From contig VBAX01000070.1 of NCBI GenBank assembly GCA_005883075.1, positions 1 to 49,490 of the forward strand: a stretch of DNA of 49,490 nt, in the 5' to 3' direction. Below are positions 9,213-41,593 of the stretch, in pieces. This DNA is from Candidatus Bathyarchaeota archaeon. GTDB taxonomy: Archaea > Thermoproteota > Bathyarchaeia > 40CM-2-53-6. Below the pieces are notes generated by a model. It was not told the origin of the DNA. It did not search any database and saw nothing but the letters and a program-made list of their open reading frames with translations. How positions within the stretch are numbered: the first letter of the stretch is position 1; every line of letters starts with the position of its first letter. Made by a program: the position numbers and the translations under genes.

Positions 9213-10442
9213 ATGGGCGATGTCACTGTCCCCCGAAACGCTACCGTCAAGCTTGCAAAGGTTGATGGCCAGCTTCACCTTTTAGACAGAGCTAGAATAC
9301 AATCGGAGGGAGAATCGCCCATCGAAGTCTCAGGCGAAGTAATCTGTGAGGGAGACGCTGAGTTCGAAGGCAGCCTCAACTGCTCAAGGCTAAACATTGA
9401 ACATGGAAGAGTAGAGATCTCAGGCGACCTAGAGACGAGCGGGGACATCGAAGTGGAACACGGCGAGCTGCGGGTCCATGGCTCTCTGGAAGCTGGCTCA
9501 GTAGAAGTCGATTCTCGCTTGTCCGTTGGAAAGTCAGCGACAGCTCACGACTTCGAAGTCGGAGGAACGCTGGACATTGGAGGCTCAATCAACGCGACCA
9601 AGGTCGATGTCGGAGGGTCCTTCAAAGTCGAAGGCGACGCGAATGTTGAGGATATCGATGTTGGAGGCCGGATCCAGGTCAACGGCAAGATCCAGTGCGA
9701 GAGACTGGACGCGGGTGGAAGTGCTGAGGTTGGAGGTGGTGAAATCTCTCGAATAATAGACGTTGGAGGTTCATTCCGATCCTCCAAACCTTTGAAGTTC
9801 GACAAGATTGACGTCGGAGGAACCGCGGCCCTAGACCAGGGAGGAGAGGGGAGAACTATCGACGTGGGCGGAAGATTCGAGAGCAAAGGGGACCTGACCT
9901 TCGAATCGATTGACGTTGGAGGAATGGTCGACATCGCTGGAAACGGAGAAGGAGAGGAAGTGGATATCGGAGGTATGTTGCAAGTGTCCGGCAACCTCCA
10001 TCTGAAACGGGATCTGGAGTTGGGCGGGACGGCCCGGATCGGTGGAAGCTTGAGGCTTGCCTCGTTAGAGGTCGGTGGCATGATAGAAGCGGATCTGATA
10101 ATCGCTGAAGACGAGGTAAAGATTGGAGGGCGTCTGAGGACTACAAGAGGAACGAAGGCAAAGACAATCCAGCTCGGTCAACGGTCAGAAGTATTGGGGG
10201 TCCTCGTTGGTGAGCATGTAAAGATCGGGGACAACGCCAGGGTCGAAGACGTGTACGCGGACACCCTGGATATGGGTGAGAAAGTCCGAGCTCGAAACGT
10301 CTACGCAAAGGACGCCCGTTTCGAATCTCGTTGCCGGATAAGTGGGGAGGTAAAGTACATCGATCGGATCGAGTCGGAACCTGACGTAGAGTTCGCGAAG
10401 CCTCCTCTGAAGACCAGCGATCTGCCTAAGCCTCCTCTCTGA
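9213..10442 (+). CDS. Bactofilin-like beta-solenoid (polymer-forming cytoskeletal-type) protein
   Basis: A 409-residue soluble protein with no signal peptide or membrane helix. From residue 117 to 306 a D/E-V/I-GG motif recurs with its first G at 117, 134, 151, 168, 185, 202, 219, 236, 253, 271, 288 and 305: every 17 residues with one 18. Each unit probably forms one turn of a right-handed beta solenoid, as in bactofilins, which self-assemble into filaments without nucleotide. The flanks (20-110 and 310-385) continue a looser version. The C-terminal tail repeats KPPL twice, like the proline-rich tails of bactofilins. The start ATG follows GGAGG by about nine bases. A wHTH gene follows 11 bases downstream, so the two are probably cotranscribed. 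Role in the cell is unknown; scaffold or shape function is inferred. Confidence 0.8.
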   Translation: MGDVTVPRNATVKLAKVDGQLHLLDRARIQSEGESPIEVSGEVICEGDAEFEGSLNCSRLNIEHGRVEISGDLETSGDIEVEHGELRVHGSLEAGSVEVDSRLSVGKSATAHDFEVGGTLDIGGSINATKVDVGGSFKVEGDANVEDIDVGGRIQVNGKIQCERLDAGGSAEVGGGEISRIIDVGGSFRSSKPLKFDKIDVGGTAALDQGGEGRTIDVGGRFESKGDLTFESIDVGGMVDIAGNGEGEEVDIGGMLQVSGNLHLKRDLELGGTARIGGSLRLASLEVGGMIEADLIIAEDEVKIGGRLRTTRGTKAKTIQLGQRSEVLGVLVGEHVKIGDNARVEDVYADTLDMGEKVRARNVYAKDARFESRCRISGEVKYIDRIESEPDVEFAKPPLKTSDLPKPPL

Positions 10443-31717: not shown

Positions 31718-32857
31718 CTACTTTCCACGCGTTCTCTTCGTGGTTTCGCTTGCTGCTTCTTTCAGCAGCCTGTTCGTGCTTTCCGTGCTTCCTCCTAGCC
31801 TGAGGGTCGCTTCGTGCTGGTCGGACAACCGTTTAGTCGCCTCGATGAGATCAGTGCGTCGTGTTTGTTCTGCGTTCGCAGATAATTGGTTCATCGTCTT
31901 GGTTGCTTCTTTCAACTGCCCCGCGGCAAGGTGCTGGTAGTATTCCTCTAGTCCTTGGTAATATGTGAATTCTGAGACGAGGTTGTTGTTGATCCCTTCC
32001 GAGAACTGCTCATCGTTTTTTGCCAGTTTGACTTCAATAGGGGCGTTGATCGTCTTCTTCTTGTCATCGATCGTGTCAGAGTAAGTGATTTGGATGTTGA
32101 GGAGTCGTCCGTTGAACCCGGCCGGTATCTGGACTCGACCCCAGATCTTCGCAATCGTTTCCACAGCATTGATCGTAACGGGGGGTCCTTTGTAGTTGAG
32201 AATCTTGACATCAGGAGTTCCAAAGTCGACACTTATGTTTCTGGCGCCGACCTCGTTTACCGCGCTCTCCTGCATCATGCTGGGGAGCTTGAGTTTTTGA
32301 GCGTCGGTGATGTTGTGGAGCATTCCGCCAGATGCGTCGGCAAGGGCCTTCAAGATTGACTGGTTATAGTCTGCGCCGATTCCGAATTCGATCATCTGGA
32401 ACCCGGTCGGCATTTTTAACTTCGAGTACTGTTCGGGTTTGGTGACGTCTGTGGGTTCGCCGTCAGTCAGCAGCACGATCCATCCTGGGAGCCGGCTCTT
32501 TTGTGCTATTTCGAACGCTGACTGTAGCGCGGCGTAGAGAGCGGTTAAACCTGAGGCTCTGATCTTAGGAAGAACCTCTGAGAGTCGGGTTTCTGGGTAT
32601 GCTTGGACTGTGCTTGAAAACAGGACGACGGAAACTAGGTTTCCCGAAGGGATGCTCTTTACGTATTCCTGAGCGCCGTTCTTTGCCAGCTCGATTTTCT
32701 GGCCGTCCATTGACTTACTCGTGTCGAGTACTATTATGTGATGGAACCCTTTCGCTTCAGTGCGTTTCTCGGCGACAAGTGTGATCTTGAATATTGCGTC
32801 TATCTTGGAGTCGAACGAGTAGGCGTGGCTGAGTTCCGTTCTTGCTGATAGTGTCAT
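31718..32857 (-). CDS. Cytoplasmic VWA-domain protein
   Basis: A 379-residue protein without signal peptide or membrane helix. The von Willebrand A domain (about 35-205) has a complete MIDAS: DTSKSMD (D45, S47, S49), T105 in ASGLTALYAA and D132 in LLTDGEPTD. A beta-rich domain follows (about 215-290), then a C-terminal helical region with coiled-coil character. Its start overlaps the phosphatase stop by four bases (ATGA), so it is translationally coupled and the last gene of the FHA-phosphatase-VWA operon. VWA domains bind protein partners through a metal ion; here the partner may be phosphorylation-dependent. The TerY family plays this part in the bacterial TerY-P triad. Confidence 0.9.
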   Translation of the reverse strand: MTLSARTELSHAYSFDSKIDAIFKITLVAEKRTEAKGFHHIIVLDTSKSMDGQKIELAKNGAQEYVKSIPSGNLVSVVLFSSTVQAYPETRLSEVLPKIRASGLTALYAALQSAFEIAQKSRLPGWIVLLTDGEPTDVTKPEQYSKLKMPTGFQMIEFGIGADYNQSILKALADASGGMLHNITDAQKLKLPSMMQESAVNEVGARNISVDFGTPDVKILNYKGPPVTINAVETIAKIWGRVQIPAGFNGRLLNIQITYSDTIDDKKKTINAPIEVKLAKNDEQFSEGINNNLVSEFTYYQGLEEYYQHLAAGQLKEATKTMNQLSANAEQTRRTDLIEATKRLSDQHEATLRLGGSTESTNRLLKEAASETTKRTRGK

Positions 32858-33639
32858 AGTCTGATCTGCTCCATCTTTTCGCCGTCGAGAATCAATACGC
32901 CTGCGGCTCCGCCGTGGTATTTGCTGGAGAATATAGTGATCACCTTTCCATCGAGGTCTTCTCTGAATCCGTCAACGACTTCGTGGCCTCTGATGATTCC
33001 TTTTAGCTGGTTGTTAGCTAGGAATTTTTCAGTCACGTCGCTTCCGTAGTAGTATGCTCCGTCTCCTCGTACGCTTGGTATGAATCCCTCGATCATGTCT
33101 CGGGGGTCGTTCCAGAGCAACTGGAATGCAGTCGGGTCGTCCGGGTTCAAGTCGGGAAATGGTAAGTCTGCGATCTGAGAAACGGTATCGAGCGTGGTGG
33201 CTATTCCACCGTGGAGGCATAGATAGTTGTTGACGACGACAGCGTATGGCATGGCTTGGAAGAACTCTTTGAAACTGTCATAGCTGGCCTCTCCTAACTT
33301 CTCTGTAACCTCTTCTAGAAAGCCGTAGTAGGGGTTCGTCAAAGGGCTCTCATGATTTCCCCTCAACATTATGAGCTTGTTAGGGTCCTCGAGAAACTTT
33401 GAGGTGATGAGTCCGAGATTCTCCACGCCGGTCTCTCCCCTGTCAACGTAGTCGCCTAAGAAGACGACTAAGTCGGAATCCCCGTAGAACTTGTCGAATA
33501 CTGTTTGTGTAACATCGATTGCAGTATGTGTGTCTCCGACGAAGATGACTCTGTTTACTTCTCTGGGCTCGAGGAGTGGTTTTCCCATTTTCTCCTTCGC
33601 CTCGCTGATGAGCTTTGGAGTTTCCAGGGCTTCAATCAT
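32854..33639 (-). CDS. PPP-family (PP1/PP2A-like) Ser/Thr protein phosphatase
   Basis: A 261-residue metallophosphatase with all PPP motifs: VGDTHTA (D36, H38), GDYVDRGE (D63, D66, R67), RGNHE (N95, H96), LHGG (H143) and RGHE (H219). The usual GDxHG has T-A instead of G-x after His, a small departure. PPP enzymes use a two-metal centre to remove phosphate from Ser/Thr residues. It overlaps the FHA gene by four bases upstream and the VWA gene by four downstream. It is the likely eraser for phosphates added by the divergent kinase at 34515. Confidence 0.94.
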   Translation of the reverse strand: MIEALETPKLISEAKEKMGKPLLEPREVNRVIFVGDTHTAIDVTQTVFDKFYGDSDLVVFLGDYVDRGETGVENLGLITSKFLEDPNKLIMLRGNHESPLTNPYYGFLEEVTEKLGEASYDSFKEFFQAMPYAVVVNNYLCLHGGIATTLDTVSQIADLPFPDLNPDDPTAFQLLWNDPRDMIEGFIPSVRGDGAYYYGSDVTEKFLANNQLKGIIRGHEVVDGFREDLDGKVITIFSSKYHGGAAGVLILDGEKMEQIRL

Positions 33640-34379
33640 TCACTGGTAAGCCTCACGATAGTGCCGGTACCGAACTTTACTATGCTGTTCGGTTTAACCT
33701 CGACGCTATCGTGAACCTGCTGGAATTCCTTTCCGTTGTAGAGGAATGTGCCGTTCTTGCTGTTCAGATCCTTCAGCATCAGTTTTGCTCCGCTCATCGT
33801 GAGTTCCGCATGTTTTCTCGAGACTTCTTGATCTGGTATGACGACTACGTTTTCGGGGCTGCGTCCGATACTGACGACTGGGAAGTCGTCGAACTCTACC
33901 GGGACCTTTGACTTGATGAGGGATTGGGCGGGAGTGTTCACGAATACCATGTAGTAACGCCCGTGCCCGGTCGTTGGGGTGGCGGCCGATGGGCTGAATG
34001 GGGTGTATGGGGTAGGGGTTGGGAGGAAGGGGGTAATTTCAGGTTCTGGTAATGGTGGCTCCGGATTTTTCTCAGTGGTGTCGAAAGAGAAAATTGTCGG
34101 TTCGGGAGGTGTTTCCTCAGCATCTATCTTCTCCGGTTCTGAAGCTTCTAATGGCTCGGGTTCTTCGAGTTCTTTGGGCTCCTGTTCTTCTAGTGGTTCT
34201 TCGGCCTTCGGGGTCGCTGTGTCTCCAGCTCTGGCTCCACCGCATGATATGCATGATTGTTTAGAGTCAGGATTGTCGGCCCCGCACGCTGAGCATGTCC
34301 AGATTAGAGTCTCCACGGACTCCACATCTAAATCAGGGTCTTTCTGTTTCGTCTTACGCTTCATAGATGGACGCTTCAT
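33636..34379 (-). CDS. FHA-domain protein with N-terminal RanBP2-type zinc finger
   Basis: A 247-residue protein in three parts. A zinc finger at 27-47 (WTCSACGADNPDSKQSCISC) has the W-x-C-x2-C-x3-N-x6-C-x2-C layout of RanBP2 fingers (C29, C32, C43, C46). A long Glu/Pro-rich linker (about 55-138) follows. The C-terminal FHA domain keeps the phosphothreonine-binding residues: G172-R173-S174, S187-R188-K189-H190 and K208-N209-G210. FHA domains read phosphothreonine, so it is the likely reader of the divergent kinase's marks. It heads the operon with the phosphatase and VWA genes. The kinase gene starts 135 bases away on the other strand. Confidence 0.93.
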   Translation of the reverse strand: MKRPSMKRKTKQKDPDLDVESVETLIWTCSACGADNPDSKQSCISCGGARAGDTATPKAEEPLEEQEPKELEEPEPLEASEPEKIDAEETPPEPTIFSFDTTEKNPEPPLPEPEITPFLPTPTPYTPFSPSAATPTTGHGRYYMVFVNTPAQSLIKSKVPVEFDDFPVVSIGRSPENVVVIPDQEVSRKHAELTMSGAKLMLKDLNSKNGTFLYNGKEFQQVHDSVEVKPNSIVKFGTGTIVRLTSE

Positions 34380-34514
34380 GGCTTCACTCTTCGGTCTACC
34401 GTCTTGCGGGCATGTAATTGCGCTGGAACGAAAACCGCCGGGTGTCGGTCACACCGTTGATTACTAGGAATCTGAGTATGGCAAGTCCACTCTTAGGAAG
34501 GCGCATGCTCCCCA

Positions 34515-36683
34515 TTGCCGCAGTTGAAGAAAGCCCGTAGGCTTCCCTTCACGCGGGACTCTTTCGGACCATTCCTCACCGTAGTGCTCTCTGTGCCTAT
34601 CGCTTTCCTCTTCGGTCTAGGAATACAAGGGGATCCCTCAGCTTACATTATCGGGTTGGTCAGCCTCGGCGTTCTGACCTCCCTGGATCTGCGAGGCGGG
34701 ATTCCAAGGGTCGGGGTCGGATTCGTTGTTTCGTTTCTCGCTTCTCTTTATGTCATTGGACACTCAGTCGCTGGACAAGGCCTGTCGCCGTTGTCGTTTG
34801 GGGATCTATCCCTACTCCTCGTTGCCCTTCCCCCCTCAATCGCGGTCCTCGTGGCAGGTCTTCTCTTCTCGCGGGCGACACCCTACAAGATGATCAAATC
34901 AAACGTCGTTGCCTCGGTCGCGTTGGCGGTTGGGCTCGGCTTGGGATCGGCTTTGAAGGCGGGGTCGGCATTGTCAATTGACTCGCTTACCATACTGTTC
35001 TTCATCGCGCTTGGTGCAGCCGCGAACATTGCCCAGATGGCTCTATTCCATCTTCTCGACAAGGTGTGGCGGACCAGGAATCTTTCGATGTCAATGATGC
35101 CTACCGCTTTCTTCACGTTCAATCTGTTGGCCGTCCTCGGGTTCGTTGCCTCTCAGGATCTTAACCAGCTCTACCCGGTCGTTTCGTCTCTAGGGTTCTT
35201 GCCTGCGTTGGCGTTGGTCGGGGTTGGCTCTACCAATCTCTCTCAGAGAATCTCGTCGGGACCCATCATTGGACCAATCATTACCATAACGGGAGCACCG
35301 ATCCTTCGACAGGGCAAAGAACAGACAATCAAGATCGCCACCCAATTTAGTGGACATGCGAAGAAAATGGCAAGGATCGTGGCGATCATCAAGAGACCTG
35401 GAGGCAAGACCGAGTCGCTGAAAGTATCACAGGTTTCGATTGGAGAATACAGTGCTCACTATCGACCTGGCGGCTCAGGCAACTACGCCGTACACGTTAC
35501 TGCTACGAGCAAGGAACACCAGACCGTAAATCAATCCTTTTCCTTCGACGTCCAATCGCCTCAATCAAGTCCTCCCCCCGCACCAAGTCCACCACCACAG
35601 ACTCGTCCACCGCCTCCGCCCCCCGTAACGCCCTCACCTGTACAACTCCCTCCACGTCCCCCGACGCCCTTTGTCAAGGGAAACCTTCCACGCTTGGATA
35701 ATTGGGACCCGAGAGTCTGGGTTGGACAGGAAGTTCACAGTTACAAGATAACCGAGCACCTAGCCACGGGGCTCACCGGCTACGTCTTCCGCGCCAGCTT
35801 TGGGCAGGCGGGTACTGAAATGGCGATAAAGATTCCAATCCTGAGAACCGGGACAGGTGCAGCTGCTCTTGAAGAGACTATGTCGGAGGCGACGCGGCTC
35901 TTGGAGTTGTCCGAGCAGTCGAAATATGTTGTCCAGCTTAGAGGAATATTGGTGGATCGACTGAACATTCAGGAGATTGTGAGAGGTGATACGCAATTGT
36001 ATCTGCGCAGTCCGCCTGCGATAGTAATGGAGTTGATGAAGGGCGGGGCGGCCAAAGGGCTTCTTGAGGATCCGTCCTACGACTCGCTGTACTATTCTGA
36101 GAAATGGGGGGGTATTGTCATGCTAATCGGTTACATGATCGCGAGCGGGCTGGAGACAATTCACAACGCGGGTTTCGTGCATCTTGACGTCAAACCGCAG
36201 AACATTCTGTTCAACCTCAAACCCCCGGCCACTGGACAGGAGATGAGGAACCAGATGAAGTCTGGTACCCTTGTGCCGAAGCTAGCTGACCTCGGTTCCG
36301 CCGTCCGTATCGGAGGCAAAGTCGGGCAGTTCACATCCGAATACGCCCCCGGCGAACAAGTCCTGGGAGATAGGACCGCATCTTCCATGGACGTCTACGC
36401 TCTAGGAGCAACACTCTACAACATGCTGACGAAGACCCCTGTTAATTCCAAGAAGCTCATCGAGTTGATGAACACCATGACAAGTAACCCCGGATCTGGG
36501 AGAACAGCGAGCGATCTGAAGTCGACATGGAACTCGTTCAACCCTGATTTTGATAGGATTGCCAAGCTCGCACCGTCGGTCCCTGTCCTTAAGAAAATGT
36601 TGGACAAGGACCCCCACAGAAGACCGACTGCCGGGAATGCAGCGAGCTTACTCCAAGACCTTGGAGAAAAGGCTCTATCCTAG
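34515..36683 (+). CDS. Polytopic membrane Ser/Thr protein kinase
   Basis: A 722-residue protein. Residues 1 to about 245 hold seven or eight membrane helices. Residues about 252-350 are a beta-rich Ig-like domain (GNYAVHVTATSKEH), followed by a Pro-rich linker (about 352-390) and a eukaryotic-like kinase domain (about 410-722). The kinase has LATGLTGYVF (Gly loop), K439 in MAIKI, HLDVKPQN (556-563; HRD is HLD), D592 in ADLGSA (DFG is DLG) and YAPGEQV for the APE segment. No helix separates the Ig-like domain from the kinase, so it should be cytoplasmic. The start is TTG 34515, the only start giving the N-terminus; a short out-of-frame ATG ORF (34505) overlaps it. It is divergent from the FHA-phosphatase-VWA operon. 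Confidence 0.92.
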   Translation: MPQLKKARRLPFTRDSFGPFLTVVLSVPIAFLFGLGIQGDPSAYIIGLVSLGVLTSLDLRGGIPRVGVGFVVSFLASLYVIGHSVAGQGLSPLSFGDLSLLLVALPPSIAVLVAGLLFSRATPYKMIKSNVVASVALAVGLGLGSALKAGSALSIDSLTILFFIALGAAANIAQMALFHLLDKVWRTRNLSMSMMPTAFFTFNLLAVLGFVASQDLNQLYPVVSSLGFLPALALVGVGSTNLSQRISSGPIIGPIITITGAPILRQGKEQTIKIATQFSGHAKKMARIVAIIKRPGGKTESLKVSQVSIGEYSAHYRPGGSGNYAVHVTATSKEHQTVNQSFSFDVQSPQSSPPPAPSPPPQTRPPPPPPVTPSPVQLPPRPPTPFVKGNLPRLDNWDPRVWVGQEVHSYKITEHLATGLTGYVFRASFGQAGTEMAIKIPILRTGTGAAALEETMSEATRLLELSEQSKYVVQLRGILVDRLNIQEIVRGDTQLYLRSPPAIVMELMKGGAAKGLLEDPSYDSLYYSEKWGGIVMLIGYMIASGLETIHNAGFVHLDVKPQNILFNLKPPATGQEMRNQMKSGTLVPKLADLGSAVRIGGKVGQFTSEYAPGEQVLGDRTASSMDVYALGATLYNMLTKTPVNSKKLIELMNTMTSNPGSGRTASDLKSTWNSFNPDFDRIAKLAPSVPVLKKMLDKDPHRRPTAGNAASLLQDLGEKALS

Positions 36684-39013: not shown

Positions 39014-41593
39014 TCAGCTTTTTCCTTGCTTAACCAAGGACTCAAACGTCGTGGGCACGTGCTTATGTTTGGCTGTCTTGGGAACTAGGAACATCATTCC
39101 TCTTCCTGGGTGAATTTTGATTTTTACGGGTCGGTTGTCGAATTTTCGTCCCCTCATCTTCTTCACTGTGAGTTGTGTGAACATCTGTCCTTCCGCAGTG
39201 GTCGTATCAAGTGTTATGATCGAGTCTACCGCCGCCTCTAGCTCCGCTAGACCCGATTTTGAGTCAGTCTTGCTCACGGCAATGAAGAACTTACCCTTCA
39301 TTTTCTTGATCCGAGTAGAGGTATCAAACACCATGTTTGCCAGGCCGTTGAGCCTCGCCCTTTCAACAAGCTGGTACGCGGAGTCAACTAGGACAACTGG
39401 TTTCTCATTGCTCAGCTGGAAAAGCGCAGTGGATATTGTGAGGTCTAGCGCTGTCGTGTCATAGAAGTTCTCCAGAACTCCGAGGCCGCGCTCTTCCCCG
39501 AGAGTCTTTGTCAGCTCGCAGCCTACTAGTTGGAATTGTTGTTTTTGTTCATATTCAAATGTGTCCCAGTGGAAAGCTTTCATTTGCTGTCTAGTGCTCT
39601 CAGGCTTGTCGTAGGTCAAGTATGCGACCGGGTTTCCAGATTGAAGGGACTTGTAGGCTAGCTCTTCGCAAATTGTCGTTTTGCCAGCTCCTGTGTCGCC
39701 CTCGATCAGAACAACGTCGCCGTCGTGGAAGCCTCCTGAGGTTAGGCTGTTCAGATACTCGAGTGGTTCCTCTTTGTAGGGGTGCTTCCTCCTGTAGAAC
39801 TCCCCGTATCCTAAGAGGCCGCCGACAGCTGCTCCCAAGAGTATCCAGTCCAGAGATTGGGTGACCCAGGATGACGGGGCGGGGCTGAACTGAATCTTGC
39901 TACTCGCATTCTGGGATAGGTCGACAGTACTTCGGACTGTCTGCGATTGATCGCTGACCACGATCACGTACTGTCCCTTGGGGAGATCGCGAAAAACCAG
40001 AATACCGTTGCTTCCGGTAGTGTTCTGGATGATCGTCTCGCCTGCGAGCGTTAGCGAAACTGTCACGCCAGCAGTTGCACCGCCGTCCTGGGCTACCACT
40101 AGCACGGTAAGGTCGTAAATCTGGAGGCTTACCGGAGATAATCCGTTCATCGGATTGAACGTGTTAGGAGAAGGTGCTACACTGACACCCATCCAGGTGA
40201 CAGTGGATATGGAGTACGTTCCTCCTGGCAATAGATAGGCTCCCGTTGGAACGAGGCTCGCCGAGGTGCCGTTCGGGTACGAGAGCTGGATACTCGATGG
40301 GGGATGAGGTAGAGGGTTGCCGTTTCCATCTTGGAACACCTTACTGAAGTCTACCTGGTAGATTGAGAGATGGAGAGTGATGGTTAGAGAGGACCTTGGG
40401 AAGAAGGATGTCTGATTCACAAGGGACCCTTGCCAGAAAGTCTTGATGGTGTAGGTCGCAGTGTCTTGTAACGGAATATTCTGGGGTGAGACTGATCCGG
40501 AAGAGTCAGATGCTCCGTTGTAGATCGCCGCTGACCCTACGAATATCGTTACGGAGGCACCTGGCACAGGGACCGGATTAGGGCCGAGGCTTAGAGCTTG
40601 AAGGTTGAGCAGCCAGGATGCGAATACGACGTATGAAAGTTGTGTTGTCATGTACAGTCCTCCATCGTCAGTGGCTCCCAAGCTTGAACCGTATCCTCCG
40701 CTCGGATCGTTGGAGGAGTAGGTCCAGTTGAGGGACCAGGTTCCAGCGTAGTCCAAGTCGGTTCCCTGGACGGAGATTAAGGGAGTGTTAGTCAGAAGGA
40801 GGGACCCGGTCGGGGATGTGAGATTTGCACGTATTGACGCGAGGTCGTATAGACCCAGGGCATCGAAGATTGACGCTCTGAGTGTAACCTGACGACTGGT
40901 CGCGGTCCAGTTTCTGCTGAAGGAGCCGGTCTGGACCCCTGTCTCGTTGAAGCTCGAGTAGGACGTGATTCCAACGCGTTGCTGGAAATTAATTGAGACC
41001 TCGCTGGAATTTGACGGTGCGTCATAATAGAGACTGATTGTCCGGCTGGTGCTACCAGGGATGTTGACAGTTATTGCGAAGTCGAGTATCGCGCCTGATT
41101 CGATTTGATACGTGTTGCTGGTAATGGCGATAGTATATCCCGTGAGGGTCGATGATATTGGCGCGCTGGAGAGGCTGCCAACAGCCAACGAGATTACCGA
41201 GCCTGAAGACGTGATCTTGTTTAGGTTGCCCGTGATCACCGTACCCGTCCCGGTGCCTGAAGAAGAGGAAAAGTACAGAACAAAAGTTAGGGGCGCTGTC
41301 AGGGTGGTGTTCCCGGCTAACGCGGGCTGCGAGTAAAAGTGCCAGATTCCAGGGGTGCTGCTCGAAACTGTTCTCTGCTCGTTTTGGTTGGTGGCGGACC
41401 AAGACTTGGTGGTGTTGGCCCATAAGTTTGTGGTTATCGTGTTTAGGGTCTTTGTGATTTGCTTGTGGAAGAAGAAGGTTGCCGGTTGCTGGGTCGAAGG
41501 TGCGGCGGCGCTGGGGATTTGGTTTGGAGCCACTGCTATGGCAAAGACTAGGACGATGAGGAATACTCCCTTTGGACCCGAGCTTCTCCGCAT
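39014..41593 (-). CDS. Secreted ectodomain fused through one membrane helix to a KaiC-like ATPase
   Basis: An 859-residue protein from ATG 41593. Residues 1-31 form a signal peptide (basic MRRSSGPKG, then VFLIVLVFAIAVAP, ending SAAA). About 540 residues of Ser/Thr-rich, beta-rich extracellular sequence follow, with around a dozen N-x-S/T sequons and two carboxypeptidase-regulatory/Ig-like repeats before the membrane (GILVFRDLPKGQYVIVVSD). One helix lies near 578-596 (LDWILLGAAVGGLLGYG), followed by basic RRKHPYK. The cytoplasmic domain is a RecA/KaiC fold with Walker A GDTGAGKTT (K638) and Walker B KPVVLVDSA. KaiC-like ATPases are normally soluble (FlaH, RadB). The start was chosen because TTTATG lies about 22 bases upstream, giving a leaderless message; TTG 41638 would add 15 residues and spoil the signal peptide. 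Confidence 0.9.
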   Translation of the reverse strand: MRRSSGPKGVFLIVLVFAIAVAPNQIPSAAAPSTQQPATFFFHKQITKTLNTITTNLWANTTKSWSATNQNEQRTVSSSTPGIWHFYSQPALAGNTTLTAPLTFVLYFSSSSGTGTGTVITGNLNKITSSGSVISLAVGSLSSAPISSTLTGYTIAITSNTYQIESGAILDFAITVNIPGSTSRTISLYYDAPSNSSEVSINFQQRVGITSYSSFNETGVQTGSFSRNWTATSRQVTLRASIFDALGLYDLASIRANLTSPTGSLLLTNTPLISVQGTDLDYAGTWSLNWTYSSNDPSGGYGSSLGATDDGGLYMTTQLSYVVFASWLLNLQALSLGPNPVPVPGASVTIFVGSAAIYNGASDSSGSVSPQNIPLQDTATYTIKTFWQGSLVNQTSFFPRSSLTITLHLSIYQVDFSKVFQDGNGNPLPHPPSSIQLSYPNGTSASLVPTGAYLLPGGTYSISTVTWMGVSVAPSPNTFNPMNGLSPVSLQIYDLTVLVVAQDGGATAGVTVSLTLAGETIIQNTTGSNGILVFRDLPKGQYVIVVSDQSQTVRSTVDLSQNASSKIQFSPAPSSWVTQSLDWILLGAAVGGLLGYGEFYRRKHPYKEEPLEYLNSLTSGGFHDGDVVLIEGDTGAGKTTICEELAYKSLQSGNPVAYLTYDKPESTRQQMKAFHWDTFEYEQKQQFQLVGCELTKTLGEERGLGVLENFYDTTALDLTISTALFQLSNEKPVVLVDSAYQLVERARLNGLANMVFDTSTRIKKMKGKFFIAVSKTDSKSGLAELEAAVDSIITLDTTTAEGQMFTQLTVKKMRGRKFDNRPVKIKIHPGRGMMFLVPKTAKHKHVPTTFESLVKQGKS

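Follow-up and report, generated by a model that had tools for sequence, protein, structure and literature searches.

A one-pass membrane protein of Bathyarchaeia with a large outer domain and an inner KaiC-type ATP-binding domain

A gene on the minus strand (39014..41593) of the window, by which the whole 49,490-nucleotide stretch of DNA under analysis is meant (contig VBAX01000070.1 of a Candidatus Bathyarchaeota archaeon), encodes a predicted type I membrane protein of 859 amino acids. Judged from its sequence, the protein of this soil archaeon crosses the membrane once, with a large domain outside and a KaiC-type ATP-binding domain inside the cell. It has the full architecture of its family, i.e., a signal peptide, an ectodomain, one transmembrane helix and a C-terminal KaiC domain. 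The protein is interpreted as a receptor-like, ATP-binding and probably non-hydrolysing membrane-anchored "iKaiC" acting on a soluble KaiC, and this interpretation is given a probability of about 50%. KaiC-based signaling, inactive KaiCs and fusions of KaiC to cytoplasmic domains are already known. The new element is the pairing of the main lineage of membrane KaiCs with a soluble KaiC. KaiC-like proteins have been proposed as archaeal signaling hubs, and a defined, conserved pair is now found in nearly every sampled genome of the order. Most KaiC-like proteins are without a known second component (PMC4858521).

The open reading frame starts at TTG 41638 or ATG 41593 and ends at 39014. With the ATG start, its coordinates are those of a sequence-only reading, made earlier, that had proposed a single chain joining a surface ectodomain to a cytoplasmic KaiC-like ATPase. 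The fusion was confirmed. The same single fused frame is present in two independent soil MAGs, G001 (97% identity) and G016 (62%), the matching records being "Candidatus Bathyarchaeota archaeon" BA_4 and BA_2. Moreover, the architecture is found order-wide, and dN/dS values against G001 of 0.11 for the ectodomain and 0.13 for the KaiC domain indicate purifying selection on both halves. An assembly chimera or a spurious joining of two genes, against which the earlier reading had proposed a search for fused homologs, is ruled out by these orthologs and has practically no chance of being correct.

The N-terminus is basic and followed by a hydrophobic stretch (hydropathy 2.02 near residue 9) and by AAA preceding the ectodomain, which bears out the proposed signal peptide (residues 1-30; 41504..41593, minus strand, as for all parts below). 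The single membrane helix had been placed near residues 578-596 and was found at residues 580-600 (39794..39856). It is glycine-rich and of moderate hydrophobicity only (best 19-mer 1.29), and AlphaFold2 models it as a helix at 579-603 with low confidence; the corresponding helices of the paralogs are clearer. RRKHPYK directly follows the helix, which fits a cytoplasmic C-terminus.

According to an AlphaFold2 model built from seven sequences (mean pLDDT 68.8), the ectodomain is all-beta. Module 1 (residues ~36-190; 41024..41488) is a predicted jelly-roll with pLDDT ~65-88 over much of its length. In Foldseek, the ectodomain model matched PDB 3i2j and 7f65 with a probability of 1.00 and an rmsd of 3.1-3.2 over 192 columns at low sequence identity, a single-module match to the jelly-roll of cocaine esterase that probably falls on module 1 and makes it similar to the CocE C-terminal domain. 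The middle part (residues ~191-400; 40394..41023) consists of beta modules of partly low confidence. The C-terminal modules (residues ~401-575; 39869..40393) are prealbumin/CnaB-like with pLDDT ~80, and residues 496-569 resemble PF13620 (CarboxypepD_reg) at 28.8 bits, below the Pfam cut-off of 32.3. An earlier AlphaFold2 model matched small prealbumin-like domains and, with poor rmsd, 177 columns of Sulfolobus SlaB. Multi-module matches to a TIE protein and complement C3 were set aside, as rmsd values near 20-40 support only a string of beta sandwiches. Foldseek matches to such predicted models indicate folds of the ectodomain, not functions. For the full-length protein, a model from three sequences gave a pLDDT of ~20-35 in the KaiC half and supports no structural statement. 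The ectodomain had also been described as sequon-rich. This description did not hold: the protein has 11 sequons, none of them after the helix, against 8.5 expected by shuffling (p=0.21), i.e., no excess beyond its Ser/Thr/Asn-rich composition.

The KaiC/RecA-type domain spans residues 612-834 (39092..39760). It matches PF06745 with an E-value of 2.2e-26 (93.1 bits, cut-off 26.6), and sequence hits in the PDB include PH0284 and KaiC. Both nucleotide-binding motifs are present as reported earlier, Walker A as GDTGAGKT (residues 632-639; 39677..39700) and Walker B as VVLVDS (residues 733-738; 39380..39397). The Walker A lysine and the Walker B aspartate are kept in 3/3 orthologs of the window clade. 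Non-conservation of this lysine in homologs had been named as an argument against the coupling idea; the orthologs give no such argument, and the lysine is replaced, by threonine, only in two paralogs of the same genome. In KaiC, E77 deprotonates water as the general base and E78 binds Mg, while K224 and R226 act in trans (PMC2777353). Equivalents of the trans-acting pair are retained in KKMRG (residues 811-815; 39149..39163) and in the whole window clade (3/3), as well as in all 30 soluble partners described below. The acidic pair is missing. In an alignment of 87 KaiC domains, its position falls in YLTYDK (residues 658-663; 39605..39622) and is degenerate, reading D-K, D-K and D-N in the three members of the clade, so that the acidic catalytic pair of an active KaiC ATPase is absent from all of them. 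As the Walker A lysine is kept and the acidic pair is lost, the membrane protein can probably still bind ATP but no longer hydrolyse it, although the loss of residues alone is no proof of lost hydrolysis. Models of known KaiC-type proteins scored low. The window protein has only one KaiC domain and reached 18 bits against the 546 required for the clock KaiC (TIGR02655). The ArlH/FlaH equivalog NF052589 gave 44.4 bits against 215, and two FlaH models gave 35 and 29 bits against 194 and 215.

The ectodomain of the window protein is homologous to that of the canonical members of the family (hhalign probability 98.7%, E 4e-16). A soluble KaiC of ~255 residues adjoins the canonical membrane KaiC in 30 of the 31 loci with flanks, the exception being that of G026. 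The two genes are convergent (tail to tail) in 28 pairs, with stop-to-stop distances of -20 to +94 bp and many overlaps, and co-directional in G245 and G344, where they are still adjacent. Other flanking genes vary between families. That the two genes stay neighbours even where they have been re-oriented speaks for a functional link, although the arrangement could also be inherited without any contact between the proteins. Neither the window gene nor the ortholog in G016 has a soluble KaiC beside it. Within the family, the window protein is a divergent paralog, an orphan with no partner gene next to its own.

The two sides of the pair differ in their active sites. Both acidic positions are kept in 29 of 30 soluble partners, against 2 of 42 membrane KaiCs and 0 of 3 in the window clade (Fisher p ~1e-16 for partners versus membrane KaiCs, with related sequences counted separately). 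The Walker A lysine is found in 30/30, 39/42 and 3/3, respectively. The partner motif YVTLDE aligns gap-free to FVTFEE of KaiC. The E77 position of the partners is mostly occupied by Asp, not Glu, and for this reason their activity, too, is only inferred. In the phylogenetic tree, the soluble partners group together, apart from the group of the membrane KaiCs. A tree constrained to place the window KaiC among the latter is no worse (AU p=0.51), and one that places it with the partners is rejected (p=2e-5). It joins the membrane KaiCs of families f11 and f20 with a support of only 88 and on a long branch, so the exact place of its clade is uncertain.

Membrane KaiCs are widespread in the order. 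Searches with a canonical member and with the window protein found long-frame or contig-end matches in 37 of 38 sampled genomes, the missing one being 67% complete. They also occur in some genomes of f11 and f20, two other families of the class. Outside the class, a single query with a threshold of E 1e-22 against 398 sampled genomes of the phylum yielded one genome; such a search would miss distant membrane KaiCs. The window genome itself has at least five ectodomain-TM-KaiC paralogs with differing ectodomains: the window protein and those on C96, C135 (interrupted by a contig end), C117 and C81. The last two, out of four other paralogs, have Thr in place of the Walker A lysine. In the order, the ectodomains combine jelly-roll and CarboxypepD-like modules. 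The f11 members carry PKD ectodomains, and that of G344 a polytopic membrane part. This free swapping of ectodomains is receptor-like.

In the proposed mechanism, the ectodomain would bind something at the cell surface, such as a ligand, a glycan, the S-layer or a neighbouring cell, and the single helix would pass the binding event on to the cytoplasmic KaiC domain. The retained Walker motifs and trans-acting Lys/Arg suggest that the ATP-bound membrane KaiC may form or join a KaiC ring. This ring would then recruit or regulate the soluble KaiC with the acidic catalytic pair, the gene of which is adjacent in the main lineage. The window paralog might rely in trans on the partner encoded on C96, or its target might be a different one. 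Outside-to-inside coupling, already suggested by the sequence-only reading, is plausible for the window protein, since a protein that couples the two sides would be expected to have just this order of ectodomain, membrane helix and KaiC domain. If the membrane and soluble KaiCs do interact, a route from an outside signal to KaiC becomes testable with two purified proteins. A broader proposal is more tentative. Bathyarchaeia and some relatives may possess a distinct form of signaling, in which a swappable ectodomain is attached to an ATP-binding, non-hydrolysing KaiC and this KaiC, within a mixed ring, controls a soluble KaiC ATPase dedicated to it, in parallel to histidine and Ser/Thr kinases; this is possible but judged rather doubtful.

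The same anatomy would also serve a switch working from the inside out, the KaiC ring reading cytoplasmic ATP/ADP or phosphorylation and altering the clustering or adhesion of the ectodomains, in the direction known from integrins. Adhesin-like folds in the ectodomain are in line with such a switch, as is the shift of the oligomeric state of ArlH with phosphorylation (PMC8978795). Ectodomain swapping fits a diversity of inputs somewhat better, and the inside-out direction is considered unlikely. A slightly better chance, still a small one, is given to a structural membrane or S-layer anchor, in which a passive or scaffold KaiC ring clusters surface proteins from inside and no signal travels inward. 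The beta-module ectodomain, the PKD ectodomains of relatives and the Thr residues replacing the Walker A lysine in some paralogs would suit such an anchor. So would a KaiC-less ectodomain-TM paralog of the window protein from the same genus (G000:C119; L063 1389-3281; 42% identity), which represents either a loss or the donor state and implies some function of the ectodomain independent of KaiC. However, nucleotide-binding residues are kept in the orthologs, and the conserved pairing with a soluble KaiC of retained active site suggests regulation over scaffolding.

ATP-driven assembly, or movement of a surface structure, had been suggested as well. Here, KaiC would act as a membrane-anchored assembly factor or motor, its ATP hydrolysis assembling or moving a surface structure formed by, or attached to, the ectodomain. 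Intact Walker motifs and the trans-acting Lys/Arg would allow this, the modules at the C-terminal end of the ectodomain have folds similar to those of sortase pilins and of Sulfolobus SlaB, and T2SSE ATPases are present in 13 of 18 genomes of the genus. The suggestion is not supported by the remaining findings: the acidic pair is lost, two paralogs have Thr for the Walker lysine, and no type IV pilus or archaellum motor gene is linked to the window gene, the neighbours of which encode MFS, MscS-like and ChrB_C proteins. Furthermore, no T2SSE match above the cut-off was found in the window genome (88% complete), and in G016 the membrane KaiC and T2SSE genes lie on separate contigs. A motor is therefore quite improbable.

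Among known systems, ArlH (FlaH) offers the closest analogy for the receptor-like iKaiC. ArlH has the KaiC-family RecA fold, binds ATP without hydrolysis and regulates a second ATPase at the membrane, its ATP-bound form stimulating the motor ATPase ArlI (PMC8978795, PMC6011876). By analogy, the membrane KaiC would sit beneath a surface domain as an adaptor gated by ATP and act on a soluble KaiC. In contrast to the window protein with its signal peptide, ectodomain and transmembrane helix, ArlH is soluble, single-domain and encoded in arl operons, and the adjacent ATPase of the membrane-KaiC family is another KaiC, not ArlI. Identity with ArlH was rejected on score (44 against a cut-off of 215) and gene context.

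KaiC-like ATPases and inactivated KaiCs (iKaiC) in archaeal signaling were reportedly treated by Makarova, Galperin and Koonin in 2017 (cited in PMC5847659). The membrane KaiCs share with the archaeal KaiC-like and iKaiC proteins an expansion into paralogs, some of them inactivated, and the fusion to input or output domains. In the fusions found described, KaiC is joined to domains of the cytoplasm, among them REC, PAS and HalOD1 (PMC5847659). In contrast, neither a type I membrane ectodomain fusion nor an adjacent KaiC pair was found described in the searchable papers, a search that did not extend to the main 2017 paper. Cyanobacterial KaiC belongs to the same domain family and likewise unites a pair of KaiC domains that differ in activity. 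Its CI and CII, however, are parts of one soluble chain with no membrane part and with the glutamate pair in both halves, and no evidence for a circadian clock was found in the membrane-KaiC system. Transmembrane Ser/Thr kinase and histidine kinase receptors work in a similar way, with a swappable ectodomain, a membrane segment and a cytoplasmic nucleotide-binding signaling domain, but the membrane KaiCs have a KaiC domain and neither a kinase nor a receiver domain.

Other KaiC loci were noted as well. A soluble KaiC (G000:C78; L019 2369-3133) falls inside the membrane-KaiC clade and has probably lost its ectodomain; it adjoins, as judged by eye, a proteasome-activating-type AAA ATPase. The pair of G025 (L075 1-3394) is adjoined by an AAA ATPase that matches MIT weakly, and two neighbours appear CdvB/ESCRT-III-like by eye, with no Pfam hit. 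In G024 and G029 (L072, L073), the pair is flanked by multi-TM, glycosyltransferase-like proteins (by eye) and by an aldehyde ferredoxin oxidoreductase, the latter with Pfam support on L072 only. A contig-end KaiC-like gene (G000:C138; L016 1-3000) lies beside several proteins with pilin-like N-terminal helices and may mark a pilus locus equipped with a KaiC of its own.

Within the window, a cluster resembling the Arn phospho-signaling set is found ~2.3 kb from the KaiC gene (31718-36683). It encodes a VWA protein with ArnB_C, an ArnA-like protein with Zn-ribbon and FHA domains, a calcineurin-like phosphoesterase and a membrane Ser/Thr kinase. The neighbourhood of the window gene is not kept around the G016 ortholog, and this cluster is not kept beside it either. 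Further away, at 9213-10442, the window encodes a protein with a bactofilin domain in an archaeal host.
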